Shown in pieces: positions 59,063 through 64,000 of a DNA stretch of 64,000 nt. Where the stretch lies: positions 1,612,001 through 1,676,000 of the forward strand of contig NZ_CP023690.1 of assembly GCF_008704795.1 (NCBI RefSeq). Reading direction: 5' to 3'. The translations under genes were made by a program, and so were the position numbers. The notes beneath the pieces are model-generated. The model worked only from the letters and a program-made list of their open reading frames with translations. It did not search any database and was not told where the DNA came from. Each line of letters begins with the position of its first letter. Position 1 is the stretch's first letter. This DNA is from Streptomyces spectabilis. GTDB taxonomy: Bacteria > Actinomycetota > Actinomycetes > Streptomycetales > Streptomycetaceae.

Positions 59063-59599
59063 TCAGCCGATCCAGGCGGTCAGCGCGCCGACCAGGGCGG
59101 CGGCCCCGGTGACCCGCAGCGCACCCACGGTCTGCGGATCCCACTCCCGCCGGCGCGCGGGGCGGCGGGACGAAGGGGCGCCGACGGACGGCACGGCGAC
59201 CGGCGGTACGGAAACGGCCGGAGGTGCGGAAGTGACCCGCGATGCGGAAGTGACCCGCGGTGCGGAGGTGACCTGCGGCGCGGAGGAGGCCCGGGCTGTG
59301 GAGGTGACCGGTGCGTCGGAGGTGAGCCGCGGGTCGACGGTGACCCGGGTGACGCCCAGGGGTTCGGTGAGGGCGCGCAGCGCCGGTTCGGAGAGGCGGA
59401 TGCGGGGCTGGCGGGCGCCGAGCGTGGCGGTCAGCCGCTCCTCGGAGGTGAAGGCGACGGCGGTGCGGCCGCCGACGGGTGTGCGGAACAGGCGGGCGAC
59501 GAAGCCCGCGGGTCCCGGCCGGACGGGTACGAACAGCGGTCCGGCCGGGCCCCGTTCAGCAGGCTCGGGGTCTTCGCCGCACACCAGGGGCTGGGTCAT
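59063..59599 (-). CDS. SAV_915-like protein with hexapeptide repeats
   Basis: 178 residues from ATG at 59599 (MTQPLVCGEDPEPAERGPAG) with AAGGAGG upstream. Residues about 20-95 (PLFVPVRPGPAGFVARLFRT then GGRTAVAFTSEERL) match the SAV_915/SseB-like conserved block. Residues about 95-150 hold a TSAPxV-type hexapeptide repeat encoded by 18-bp DNA repeats. The end carries a short hydrophobic helix (VTGAAALVGALTAWIG). It lies 47 bp upstream of lysA on the same strand. Function is unknown. Confidence 0.75.
   Translation of the reverse strand: MTQPLVCGEDPEPAERGPAGPLFVPVRPGPAGFVARLFRTPVGGRTAVAFTSEERLTATLGARQPRIRLSEPALRALTEPLGVTRVTVDPRLTSDAPVTSTARASSAPQVTSAPRVTSASRVTSAPPAVSVPPVAVPSVGAPSSRRPARRREWDPQTVGALRVTGAAALVGALTAWIG
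59220..59330. repeat. Degenerate 18-bp tandem repeat inside SAV_915-like gene
   Basis: About six degenerate copies of a unit such as GCGGAAGTGACCCGCGAT lie in frame and encode TSAPxV-like hexapeptides. The number of copies is likely to vary between strains. Confidence 0.8.
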
Positions 59600-59977
59600 G
59601 GTTCCTCCTTGAGCAGCCTCGGGCGAGGCTCTCGTGGGTCGGGCGGGCGCCGCGGGCTCGGTCGCGCGGGCGCCGTTCGTCCGGTGACGAGCACCGGGCA
59701 CATGGTGACGTTATGCCCGGCACGGGGTGTCAACCGACCCTCCATGACGTCCCGTTGACGGCGAAGGGGTGCACGCTGACACTCTGCTGACGCGCCCCCG
59801 GCCGACGGGCCCGGAACGAGTGAACGGGGCGCGGCCGCGGGCGAGCCGCCGAGGTCCGCTGCACCCCTCGCCCGGCCGAGGCGCACCCGCGCCCGACCGA
59901 CGCACAGCCACGCCCGGCCCGAGGCGCAGCCCCGCCCGCCGCAGCCCGCCCGAGGCCCGGCGCTCAAGGCGCAGCCC
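59600..59977. other. Intergenic region between SAV_915-like gene and kdpE
   Basis: 378 bp, very GC-rich, with Pro/Arg-type low-complexity composition in every frame. The 120-codon readings here have no recognisable features. I see no RNA gene or strong hairpin. Confidence 0.45.
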
Positions 59978-60661
59978 TCACTCCTCGAACCGGTACCCCA
60001 TCCCCGGCGCGGTGATCAGATGCCGTGGATGGGACGGGTCGGGCTCCAGCTTGCGGCGCAGTTGGGCCATGTACACGCGCAGATAGTTGGTGCGCGTGCT
60101 GTGCGAGGGCCCCCACACCTCGCCGAGCAGCTGCTGCTGGCTGACCAGACGGCCGCGGTGGCGGATCAGGACCTCCAGGAAGTGCCACTCGGTCGGCGTG
60201 AGGCGCACGACGCGGCCGTCGCGCAAGGCCTTCTTGGCCAGCAGATCGAGGGTGAAGCCCGGGGTCTCGACGAGCGCCGGTGCCGCGTCGTGGTCCGCGG
60301 GCCGGGTCCTGCGGGCCGCGGCCCGCAGCCGGGCGAGGAGTTCGTCCATGCTGAACGGTTTGGGGATGTAGTCGTCGGCGCCCGCGTCGAGCGCCGCGAC
60401 CTTCTCGTCGGAGGCCTGGCGGGCGGACACGACGAGGATCGGGGCGCGGCTGAACCCGCGCAGCCAGCCGATCAGATCGATGCCGTCCATGTCGGGCAGT
60501 CCGAGATCAAGGAGGACCACGTCCGGCGGACGTGCCGACGCCAGACGCTGGGCCATGCCCCCGTCGACCGCCGCGTCCACCTCGTACTTACGCGCCTTGA
60601 GGTTGATCTCCAGAGCCCGTACGAGCTGTGGGTCGTCCTCGACCACCAGCACCCGGGTCAT
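59978..60661 (-). CDS. kdpE: KdpE-type response regulator
   Basis: 227 residues from ATG at 60661 (MTRVLVVEDDPQLVRALEIN). The receiver has Asp pairs near 9, the phosphoacceptor in DVVLLDLGLPDMDGIDLIGW near 52 and YIPKPFSMDELLARLRAAAR near 99. The OmpR/PhoB winged helix ends VYMAQLRRKLEPDPSHPRHL, ITAPGMGYRFE, the KdpE-like end. In Kdp systems KdpE activates kdpFABC at low K+. Here no kdpD sensor is adjacent, and it is divergent from a lone kdpB. Confidence 0.88.
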   Translation of the reverse strand: MTRVLVVEDDPQLVRALEINLKARKYEVDAAVDGGMAQRLASARPPDVVLLDLGLPDMDGIDLIGWLRGFSRAPILVVSARQASDEKVAALDAGADDYIPKPFSMDELLARLRAAARRTRPADHDAAPALVETPGFTLDLLAKKALRDGRVVRLTPTEWHFLEVLIRHRGRLVSQQQLLGEVWGPSHSTRTNYLRVYMAQLRRKLEPDPSHPRHLITAPGMGYRFEE

Positions 60662-60789
60662 CGGTGTGCCGCCTCCTGACAGTGGGGGCGGACCCTGCCC
60701 GCGACCGTACGCGGCCGAAGCGGAACGGGCCCACAGAATTAGTGCGGTCCCGTGAAGCAAAGCGCCCACCAGCGCGTTCGCCGCGTCTC

Positions 60790-60838
60790 TTGATGCCTCT
60801 CATACGGCGGGGTCAACTGCGTTGACGCCTCTCATACG
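60790..60838. promoter_or_regulatory. Two 17-bp direct repeats, candidate KdpE sites
   Basis: TTGATGCCTCTCATACG (60790-60806) and TTGACGCCTCTCATACG (60822-60838) differ at one base. Their starts are 32 bp apart, about three helical turns, as for a regulator binding one DNA face. Confidence 0.55.
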
Positions 60839-60900
60839 TGGGGGCCAAGGCCGTACGAGAACACGCCGGGGCGCGCGCGACGGCGTGGTTCCAAGAAAAA

Positions 60901-60942
60901 CGTCCCGGGTCCCGACCCCCCTCGTGGCCGGGACCCGGGACG
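60901..60942. terminator. Strong hairpin in the kdp leader region
   Basis: CGTCCCGGGTCCCG (60901-60914) pairs perfectly with CGGGACCCGGGACG (60929-60942) across 14 nt; AAGAAAAA precedes it. It may be a terminator or attenuator, or part of a structured leader. Confidence 0.6.
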
Positions 60943-61305
60943 TCCGCCTGGACGGACGACGGGTGCCCCGGTGCGGGGCGCACACGGTCCCTACCCCCGT
61001 ACTGGACCTGCGCGCTGTAGGCGGTGGTCGTCGTCACACGCCTTCGACCCCGCACCGGGTTCCGTTCGTCCGTCCCCCCGTGGTGATCAGTCTTGGGCCG
61101 GTTCCGGACGTTCCCGTTCTTGTTGACGCTCTCCTGATGCGCCATCAGGGCCTCTTGACGCGGTCTTGACGGGTGGTCAGGGGCGCTGTCAGAGCGTCAT
61201 CAATTCCCGGTCGCGAAGGTGAACCAGGGAGGGCCGCACGGCTACCTTCCTCTGCGCGCGGCCGCGCTCCGCGGCCGCTCCCCCTGCAGAAAGTCACCCT
61301 CACCG

Positions 61306-63519
61306 ATGCTTCCCGCCGCCTCGCAGCAAGCTCCCTCCCCGCCCGAGAAGCCCGAGAAGCCCGAGGACCCCGAGGGCCCCGGGGGCCGGTCCGGGCCCGG
61401 TCCACGGCTCCGCCCCGGCCGCCGGCACCGGGCCGGTACCGGCGGACTCGTCGACCCTGTGCAGTTGTTCACGTCGCAGCTGCTCACCTCGTTCCCCGAC
61501 GCCGTGCACAAGCTGCGGCCGCGCGCGCTGGTGAAGAACCCCGTCCTGTTCGTCGTGGGGTGCGGCGCGGTCATCACCACGGGCTCCGCCGTGCTCCACC
61601 CGTCGGTGTTCTCCTGGGTCATCAGCGGCTGGCTCTGGCTCACGGTGATCTTCGCGAACCTCGCGGAGGCCGTCGCCGAGGGCCGCGGCAAGGCGCAGGC
61701 GCTGGCCCTGCGCAAGGCGCGTACGGACACGGTCGCCCGCCGGCTGCGCCACAACTGGCGTATGGGCATGGACATCACGGGCGCGGAGACGGAGGCCGTC
61801 GCCGCGACCGAGCTGCGGCCCTTCGACTTCGTCGTGGTCGAGGCGGGCGAGCTGATCCCGGCCGACGGCGACGTCGTGGAGGGGGTCGCGGCGGTCGACG
61901 AGTCCGCCGTCACCGGGGAGTCGGCGCCGGTCATCCGCGAGTCCGGCGGCGACCGCAGCGGTGTGACGGGCGGTACGACGGTGCTGTCCGACCGGATCGT
62001 CGTACGCGTGACCTCGCGCGCCGGGCACTCCTTCCTGGACCGCATGATCTCGCTCGTCGAGGGCGCGTCCCGACAGAAGACGCCCAACGAGATCGCCCTG
62101 AACATCCTCCTCGCGGCGCTCACCGTCGTCTTCGTCCTGGTCGTCGTCGCGCTCCAGCCGATGGCCTCGTACGCGGACGCGGCGCAGCCCACGACCGTGC
62201 TCGTCGCGCTCCTGGTGACGCTGATCCCGACGACGATCGGCGCGCTCCTCTCGGCGATCGGCATCGCGGGCATGGACCGGCTCGTGCAGCGCAACGTGCT
62301 CGCGATGTCGGGCCGCGCGGTGGAGGCGGCGGGCGACGTGAACACCCTGCTCCTGGACAAGACCGGCACGATCACGCTCGGCAACCGCGAGGCGGACGCG
62401 TTCCTCCCGCTGCCCGGCGTCGACGAGACGCACCTCGCGGACGCCGCGCAGCTGTCGTCCCTCGCGGACGAGACGCCCGAGGGGCGGTCCGTCGTGGTGC
62501 ACGCCAAGGAGCGATACGGCCTGCGCGCCCCGGCCAGGGGCGAGCTGGCGAACGCCACGTTCGTGGAGTTCACGGCGCAGACCCGGATGAGCGGCATCGA
62601 TCTGCGCTGGGACAACGGCGCGGCCTGCGCGATCCGCAAGGGCGCGGCCGCCCAGGTGATCAGCTGGGTGGAGCTGCGCGGCGGCCGGGTGCCGCCCGAG
62701 GCGAGGGCGTTCGCCGACTCGGTGGCGACGTCGGGCGGCACGCCGCTGCTCGTCGCGGTGCACGACTGGGACGGGCCGCGCGTCCTCGGCGTCGTCCGCC
62801 TCAAGGACGTCGTGAAGGACGGCATCCGCGAGCGGTTCGCCGAGCTGCGCCGCATGGGCATCAAGACCGTGATGATCACCGGCGACAACGCGCTCACGGC
62901 GCGCGCCATCGCCCGGGAGGCGGGCGTGGACGACTTCCTCGCGGAGGCCACCCCCGAGGACAAGCTCGCCCTGATCAGGAAGGAACAGGAGGGCGGCAAG
63001 CTCGTCGCCATGACCGGCGACGGCACGAACGACGCGCCCGCGCTCGCGCAGGCCGACGTCGGCGTGGCCATGAACACCGGCACCTCGGCCGCCAAGGAGG
63101 CCGGGAACATGGTGGACCTGGACTCCAACCCCACCAAGCTCATCGACATCGTCGAGATCGGCAAGCAGCTCCTGATCACGCGCGGCGCCCTGACGACCTT
63201 CTCGATCACCAACGACGTGGCGAAGTACTTCGCGATCATCCCGGCCATGTTCGCGGGTGCCTATCCGGGTCTGGAGGCGCTCAACGTCATGGGGCTGCAC
63301 AGTCCGAAGTCGGCGATCACCTCCGCGATCATCTTCAACGCGCTGATCATCGTGGCGCTCATCCCGCTGGCGCTGCGCGGCGTCCGCTACACGCCCGCGT
63401 CGGCGCACGACCTGCTGCGCCGCAACCTCGCGCTGTACGGGCTCGGCGGGCTCGTCCTGCCGTTCCTCGGCATCAAGCTGATCGACTTGGCGATCTCCAC
63501 GGTCCCGGGTCTCGGCTGA
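61306..63519 (+). CDS. kdpB: KdpB, K+-transporting P-type ATPase catalytic subunit, without kdpA or kdpC
   Basis: 737 residues from ATG at 61306; GTG at 61219 would add 29. A Pro/Glu/Arg-rich N-terminal tail of about 50 residues precedes the conserved [21 protein letters not shown]-type motifs are complete: TGES in [13 protein letters not shown] near 204, phosphorylated Asp in [13 protein letters not shown] near 351, MITGDNAL near 527 and [12 protein letters not shown] near 570. The Kdp-specific [17 protein letters not shown] (Asp and Lys of TM5) is kept. KdpB normally works only with KdpA and KdpC; neither follows (272 bp, then an SDR gene). Confidence 0.95.
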
Positions 63520-63791
63520 CCCCGCGGCCCCCGCCCCACCGCTCGTATCAGGGCCCCGTCAAGGACCGTACGGACGGCTTGAAGCCCAGCTCAGGGGCCA
63601 GTTGGATGAGTGTCGTGAACAGCTTCGCGCGCCATGACGACCGGCCGCCCCATACGGCGGTGCCGGTCGCGCGCCCGTTCTCGTGACGGGGCGCTGAACC
63701 GGCACCGCATCAGCCGCACCCCCTTCACCCCGCATGCCCCCGCCCCCTTCCAGGGGCCGCCCCGGCATGCCCCGACCCAGGAAACACAGCC
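63520..63791. other. Gap after kdpB where kdpC would be expected
   Basis: 272 bp with no KdpC-like frame. A minus-strand frame ending at 63548 (LFTTLIQLAPELGFKPSV) has protein-like composition but no start codon, and I treat it as chance or a remnant. Confidence 0.5.
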
Positions 63792-64000
63792 ATGTCCTCT
63801 GCCTCCCTGTCCGGCCGCACCGCACTCGTGACCGGCGCCACCTCCGGAATCGGCTTCGAGACCGCCCGTCTCCTGGCCGAGCGCGGCGTCACCGTGCTGC
63901 TGCACGGCCGCACCGTCGACGAGGCCCGGGCCGCCGTCGACGCGCTCATCGCCGCGACTCCCGCCGACGCCGTGCGCCCGCACCCCGTCGCCGCCGACTT
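63792..64000 (+). CDS. Short-chain dehydrogenase/reductase, partial (runs off the window)
   Basis: ATG at 63792 with AGGAAA upstream gives 69 residues to the window end. It starts MSSASLSGRTALVTGATSGIG, then FETARLLAERGVTVLLHGRT. The TGxxxGIG motif marks the NAD(P) binding loop of classical SDR enzymes, and HGRT suggests NADP preference. The catalytic Tyr and Lys lie outside. The substrate is unknown. Confidence 0.92.
   Translation, partial: MSSASLSGRTALVTGATSGIGFETARLLAERGVTVLLHGRTVDEARAAVDALIAATPADAVRPHPVAAD

Follow-up and report, generated by a model that had tools for sequence, protein, structure and literature searches.

A solo KdpB lineage of Streptomycetaceae, encoded apart from kdpA and kdpC and accompanied at about half of its loci by predicted KdpE operators

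In a 64-kb stretch of the Streptomyces spectabilis genome (positions 1612001-1676000 of the single 9.81-Mb contig NZ_CP023690.1; hereafter the window, whose own numbering is used for all features lying in it), a kdpE-like gene (59978-60661, minus strand) and a kdpB gene (61306-63519, plus strand) form a divergent pair with no kdpA, kdpC, or kdpD beside it, the genome copies of these genes all being located elsewhere. The product of the latter gene is a KdpB by its sequence; what is new is that it stands alone, belongs to a clade of its own, and has its own promoter. We consider it probable that this solo KdpB represents an old lineage of Streptomycetaceae in which two different KdpB engines, both controlled by KdpE, drive one KdpA/KdpC channel module or, more boldly, KdpB pumps without KdpA, the K+ site having been remodelled at positions 261 and 581 (E. 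coli KdpB numbering, as for all residues below). The more specific proposal, which we hold with about even confidence, is that the solo KdpB would be an alternative catalytic subunit that is regulated together with the pump and assembles in trans with KdpA and KdpC.

The solo kdpB frame is open to 63519, and its start was placed at the ATG at 61306 by comparison with the nearest relative (locus L135), in which this start and much of the arrangement between the two genes recur. Its product scored 985.1 bits against the NCBIfam model TIGR01497 (kdpB; cut-off, 527.9). As stated in the initial annotation, which was made from the DNA letters, the P-type motifs and the Asp and Lys residues of the fifth transmembrane helix (TM5) are all retained: the catalytic core of TGES (159-162), DKTGT, and GDGTND (with D518 and D522) was found, as were D307, D583, and K586.

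Among the best 80 loci listed in a scan of named genomes, kdpB also occurs without flanking operon kdpA or kdpC in Streptomyces sp. APSN-46.1, S. pathocidini, S. avidinii, Kitasatospora paracochleata, and Streptomyces sp. NRRL B-24484. Within the genus, 344 of 392 genomes matched KdpB at E ≤ 1e-150; 49 copies in 45 genomes scored at least 1143 bits, the next match being at 1087 bits. Examination of these 49 copies (48 outside the S. spectabilis genome) and of ten lower-scoring ones, seven solo and three canonical, revealed a solo kdpB in at least 52 of the 392 genomes, a lower bound reached with matches down to about 1024 bits and two scored candidates per genome (genome G258 is among those unread). 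In a tree of 154 KdpBs, built by a quick method without bootstrap, all 59 solo proteins, counted after removal of the duplicate rows L091 and L027, formed one branch with a support of 100 in the Shimodaira-Hasegawa-like approximate likelihood ratio test (SH-aLRT). This branch lies beside the Kitasatospora-type and other canonical KdpBs at a weakly resolved fork, and the KdpB of the S. spectabilis kdp operon falls outside it. Screening 150 genomes from the family yielded 28 new loci, 14 of them solo as judged from 1.5-kb flanks, bringing the genera with a solo kdpB to five in all (four beyond Streptomyces); in the enlarged tree, from which three of the 14 were omitted as repeats of loci already included, the solo proteins again made up one branch (70 of the 179 rows).

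The solo branch is marked by its flanks. Within 500 bp, none of the 59 solo kdpB genes, the window copy included, has kdpA directly upstream or kdpC directly downstream, in contrast to the canonical KdpBs, of which 93/95 are flanked by kdpA, 92/95 by kdpC, and 90/95 by both. Relatives with kdpA directly upstream, a case that the initial annotation had named as fatal to its idea of a lone gene, were thus not encountered.

The rest of the Kdp system does lie elsewhere, one of the two alternatives raised from the window, in which neither KdpA nor KdpC was seen adjacent to KdpB. The genome search proposed at that time found one kdpA, one kdpC, and three kdpD genes, and a complete kdpABCDE operon is present at about 7.05 Mb (genome positions 7053488-7061486). 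It contains the sole genome matches to kdpA (7053488-7055107) and kdpC (7057303-7057962), which rules out a hidden second kdpA or kdpC in this genome, together with a canonical kdpB (7055248-7057254; product 74% identical to the window KdpB) and a second kdpE (7060809-7061486; product 72% identical to the window KdpE). The window pair is an extra one. One kdpD belongs to the operon, and the other two are in tandem (locus L015; genome positions about 1590176-1595387, minus strand), about 17 kb before the window and about 77 kb from the pair; they are arranged head to tail without kdpE or kdpFABC alongside. The statement that KdpE lacks KdpD therefore holds for its immediate surroundings and fails for the genome as a whole. 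Moreover, all 52 genus genomes with a solo kdpB that were searched also have kdpC and another, canonical-type kdpB (interrupted by runs of N in one of them), a co-occurrence with a naive chance of 0.0007 when relatedness is ignored. The canonical kdpB copies of genome G075 were considered as broken genes offering a natural test and were rejected, the breaks being runs of N in the record.

The residues of the K+ path and of catalysis are essentially fixed in the solo proteins. Thus, T75, S162, L228, F232, D300, D307, D518, D522, D583, K586, and N624 are present in 70/70 solo KdpBs of the enlarged set and in 109/109 canonical ones, and T159, G160, E161, and P264 are kept in all 59 solo proteins of the first set. 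While the whole K+ path (T75, L228, F232, P264, D583, K586, and N624) is retained, the neighbouring positions 261 and 581 differ: the former is T in 65/70 solo KdpBs and C or A in 109/109 canonical ones, and the latter, two residues before D583, is T, C, or V in 65/70 solo KdpBs and A in 106/109 canonical ones. The backbone of position 261 is reported to bind K+ in the excerpted text of PMC12629597. With approximate helix borders set by ourselves, 93 of the 96 membrane positions and 187 of the 204 soluble positions that are invariant in canonical KdpB are also invariant in the solo proteins. With other canonical KdpBs as the reference, it is in the actuator domain that the solo KdpBs diverge most from the Streptomyces canonical ones (ratio, 1.43).

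Between the two genes of the window, the two 17-bp repeats 32 bp apart that had been noticed at the outset were recovered as a strong doublet of boxes at 60790-60806 and 60822-60838, both reading CGTATGAGAGGC(G/A)TCAA on the minus strand, with a start-to-start distance of 32 bp. This doublet (60790-60838) is directed towards kdpE, as the doublets of canonical promoters are towards kdpA, and its boxes are conserved in L135. Scored with a matrix derived from the kdpA promoters of other genomes, the sites of S. spectabilis being left out, it was the best match in the whole window (51.1 bits). Second in the window was a weaker doublet (61123-61171, minus strand; 20.4 bits), also with 32-bp spacing, which ends 135 bp before the kdpB ATG and runs in reverse to kdpB; it is conserved in L135, and the same arrangement recurs at other solo loci. 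A forward box (61187-61203, plus strand), identified by eye and unscored, follows 15 bp after it. The canonical reference consisted of the upstream regions of 42 kdpA genes at least 74% identical to that of S. spectabilis, one species being counted twice. The box was found with up to four mismatches in 37/42 of them, with 56 sites on the same strand as the gene and one on the opposite strand, and a doublet above 20 bits with 32-bp spacing in 42/42, partly by construction since the matrix was trained on these boxes. The sharpness of the spacing is not a product of the matrix construction: doublets occurred in 9/42 at a spacing of 43 and in none or one at each of the remaining 21 spacings between 22 and 44. 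In the S. spectabilis genome, the exact box pattern occurs four times (twice in the strong doublet of the window, once in the kdpA promoter, and once at genome positions 9782272-9782288), and a search allowing one mismatch gave eight matches, compared with two for a reversed-pattern control.

The type of doublet that the window shares with kdpA promoters extends to other solo loci. A doublet above 10 bits is present in 34/59 solo upstream regions, whereas none of 590 shuffled sequences exceeded 0 bits; shuffles and the whole-window scan served as the background, because one drawn from the loci contained real kdp promoters. At more than 20 bits, 27/59 have a doublet at a spacing of 32, 10 at 43, and 7 at 22, echoing an 11-bp period. 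Among 32 reverse doublets scoring above 9 bits, 22 have a forward box of more than 5 bits located 15-16 bp further on. The operator pattern is conserved in about half of the solo loci, and some of the best solo-upstream doublets should probably be assigned to a kdpA or kdpE on the divergent side. Since the window doublet matches those before the canonical kdpA genes of the genus, it is a likely KdpE operator, in line with the target initially suggested, and KdpE would be expected to bind at both doublets as judged from their sequences. Separately, a third-ranked doublet with 32-bp spacing (59744-59792; 0.5 bits) is located just past the end of kdpE, and the exact single box at 9782272-9782288, near the chromosome end, adjoins genes without a visible link to K+.

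The kdpE-like gene itself is an open frame coding for a response regulator of 227 residues. Among its paralogues, the KdpE of the kdp operon is the closest (72% identity), the remaining listed matches being at most 43% identical; in NCBIfam, the KdpE model NF007820 was the top hit, yet its score of 214.9 bits is below the cut-off of 325. Counting neighbours within 8 kb, that is, as far as each locus extends (3.5 kb leftward for the window and 6 kb for L026, L028, and L029), a KdpE was found at 8/52 solo loci outside a subclade of seven (L183-L189) and at 0/7 within it, and a lone kdpE directly adjoining a solo kdpB occurs, among the annotated solo loci, in the window and L135 only. The kdpE-kdpB pair, for which a search in other strains had been advised, is thus not generally conserved, and the window kdpE resembles a local leftover or acquisition of this small lineage more than a regular companion of the solo gene.

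Because the lone copy is intact and selection has maintained it in many relatives, it is probably a second, exchangeable engine for the pump. At low K+, KdpD/KdpE would switch on both the kdpFABC operon and the solo kdpB via the upstream boxes; the solo KdpB would then join KdpA and KdpC, of which the genome encodes one each, in complexes assembled in trans, and the cell would gain another form of the pump, with a different tuning of the K+ site (261 and 581) and the actuator domain and presumably with altered kinetics. Such an assembly is suggested by the residues reported at the subunit interface. Excerpts of PMC6255902 describe D300, D302, and G510 as KdpB contacts to KdpA and place L228 and V231 at the sealed KdpA-KdpB interface, and those of PMC8385062 describe F232 as a tunnel constriction and R651 at a lipid site between the two subunits. 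D300, L228, and F232 occur in 59/59 solo proteins, position 231 is V or I in 59/59, G510 is kept in 58/59 (69/70 in the enlarged set), and R651 in 55/59 (64/70), compared with 70/109 canonical KdpBs. By eye, four further P-type ATPase genes in this genome have R or H instead of D at the place of D300. The partner of D300 in KdpA is reported to be R400, a residue that the KdpA of S. spectabilis possesses. In view of the retained gate and contact residues and of the co-occurrence with canonical Kdp genes, we favour this exchange of engines, unproven as it is, over a pump that stands alone.

Several observations weigh against the exchange. No doublet above 10 bits was found in 25/59 solo upstream regions, including all seven of L183-L189; the weaker doublet of the window is reversed relative to kdpB, unlike those of canonical promoters; and the best doublet of L141, L161, L135, L003, and L165 probably belongs to the divergent neighbour. 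As to the contacts, position 302 is N in the window KdpB and 46/59 solo proteins and is unconserved in both groups, and D302 does not discriminate, since the residue is S in 37/37 Streptomyces canonical KdpBs; D300 and G510 lie near the active site and L228 and F232 by the ion path, so that their retention may have reasons internal to KdpB; and the KdpA-KdpB salt bridge is called dispensable in the excerpts of PMC8385062. TM3, which carries L228 and F232, varies more in the solo proteins (rate, 0.198) than in the Streptomyces canonical ones (0.062; 0.233 for other canonical KdpBs), and the median omega is 0.21 for solo and 0.15 for Streptomyces canonical KdpBs, indicating a somewhat faster evolution of the former. 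Finally, the chance value for the co-occurrence takes no account of kinship, and the search for kdpA covered the S. spectabilis genome only.

Some of the same evidence bears on the main rival, in which the solo KdpB would be a KdpA-independent P-type pump that, equipped with the catalytic residues and the K+ site, gains access to the ion and moves K+ or another cation by itself. The uniform absence of adjoining kdpA and kdpC, the spread of the clade over five genera, its specific changes at 261 and 581, and the variable TM3 would all suit such a pump, as would the L183-L189 subclade, where a search over 8 kb turned up no K+-related gene of the kinds looked for at any of the seven loci. On the other hand, F232, L228, D300, G510, and mostly R651 are retained, the membrane positions are not relaxed overall, and every one of the 52 solo genomes checked has kept kdpC and a second kdpB. 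We regard a KdpA-independent pump as possible, though on balance unlikely.

The gene neighbourhood speaks to another alternative, namely that the solo KdpB has a new partner in its island (an APC permease, DUF4118 protein, or short-chain dehydrogenase) or is a regulatory decoy, such as an extra substrate of the KdpD serine kinase. Genes of Kdp or of five types that we label K+-related (APC1, APC2, DUF4118, cation/proton exchanger, and Kup) lie within 8 kb at 48/52 loci outside L183-L189 and at 0/7 inside this subclade; APC1 corresponds to PF13520, APC2 has no Pfam match, and according to an excerpt of a review, such permeases include KimA-like K+ symporters of Streptomyces. Short-chain dehydrogenases were counted at 36/52 of these loci, APC1 and APC2 at 28/52 each, DUF4118 at 27/52, and KdpDs at 26/52. 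The serine of TGES (S162), whose phosphorylation is reported to be mediated by KdpD in the excerpted text of PMC11018627, is invariant, which would suit a decoy, but a pure decoy would have no need of an invariant K+ path. Nor is any neighbour constant, which rules out a fixed protein partner among them, and the short-chain dehydrogenase, APC1, APC2, and DUF4118 genes are all absent within 8 kb of L183-L189 (0/7). A new partner or decoy appears decidedly improbable to us, and of the early suggestion of a lone KdpB-like pump with a new partner or role, the separate, lone KdpB in a conserved clade has stood, whereas a constant neighbouring partner has not. At five of the seven L183-L189 loci, the solo kdpB is surrounded by one and the same set of unrelated genes; the boxes preceding it in this subclade are other, weak forward ones.

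A redundant spare copy, raising the KdpB dose or decaying, would accord with the 74% identity to its canonical counterpart in this genome and the slightly raised omega, but is very hard to reconcile with a single clade that has near-fixed residues of its own, an operator arrangement of its own, and omega far below 1. By a simple counting method, pairwise omega of the window kdpB against eight solo relatives was 0.14-0.18 for six and 0.28 and 0.31 for two more distant ones. A decayed duplicate beside a complete operon, the other outcome named in advance as fatal, is on these grounds ruled out: the operon exists, and the window copy is intact.

Two further features adjoin the pair. The strong intergenic hairpin noted initially was confirmed at 60900-60943, between the two predicted operators, with -36.7 kcal/mol (z, -5.9 against shuffles). 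Because TTTTT follows it on the minus strand, it is terminator-like for leftward transcripts and could end a short one begun near the weaker doublet. Its arms are changed in L135, yet by eye look able to pair, and no Rfam family matched in 59500-64000 at the gathering score. To the right of kdpB, a short-chain dehydrogenase gene starts at 63792 (63792-64000, plus strand) and extends past the window; relatives of it are the dehydrogenases counted above near many solo kdpB genes, for no visible reason.

KdpFABC has been described as one four-part machine that K+ enters through KdpA, and P1A pumps as heterotetramers (excerpts of PMC10654040); no paper on a lone KdpB was found in the open-access library searched under the phrases tried. 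A lone KdpB lineage with an intact ion path offers a natural test of whether the engine is exchangeable or self-running, the solo KdpBs supply naturally occurring variants of the K+ site, and the doublets provide a predicted KdpE operator for Streptomyces. Compared with the canonical KdpB of KdpFABC (E. coli structures 6HRA and 5MRW, among others), the solo proteins are alike in the catalytic motifs, ion path, TGES serine, TM5 Asp and Lys, and most reported KdpA contacts, and differ in the lack of adjoining kdpA and kdpC (59/59), the changes at 261 and 581, the more diverged actuator domain, and their own promoter arrangement. The kdpABCDE operon of the same genome resembles the window pair in its KdpB (74%), its KdpE (72%), and the same type of box in front, but it is complete and holds the only kdpA and kdpC. 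Likewise, as in the KdpE/KdpD control of kdpFABC, the window has an adjacent KdpE paralogue and operator-like doublets before both genes, in a genome with three kdpD genes; unlike in that system, its kdpE has no adjoining kdpD, two tandem copies of which lie about 77 kb away.

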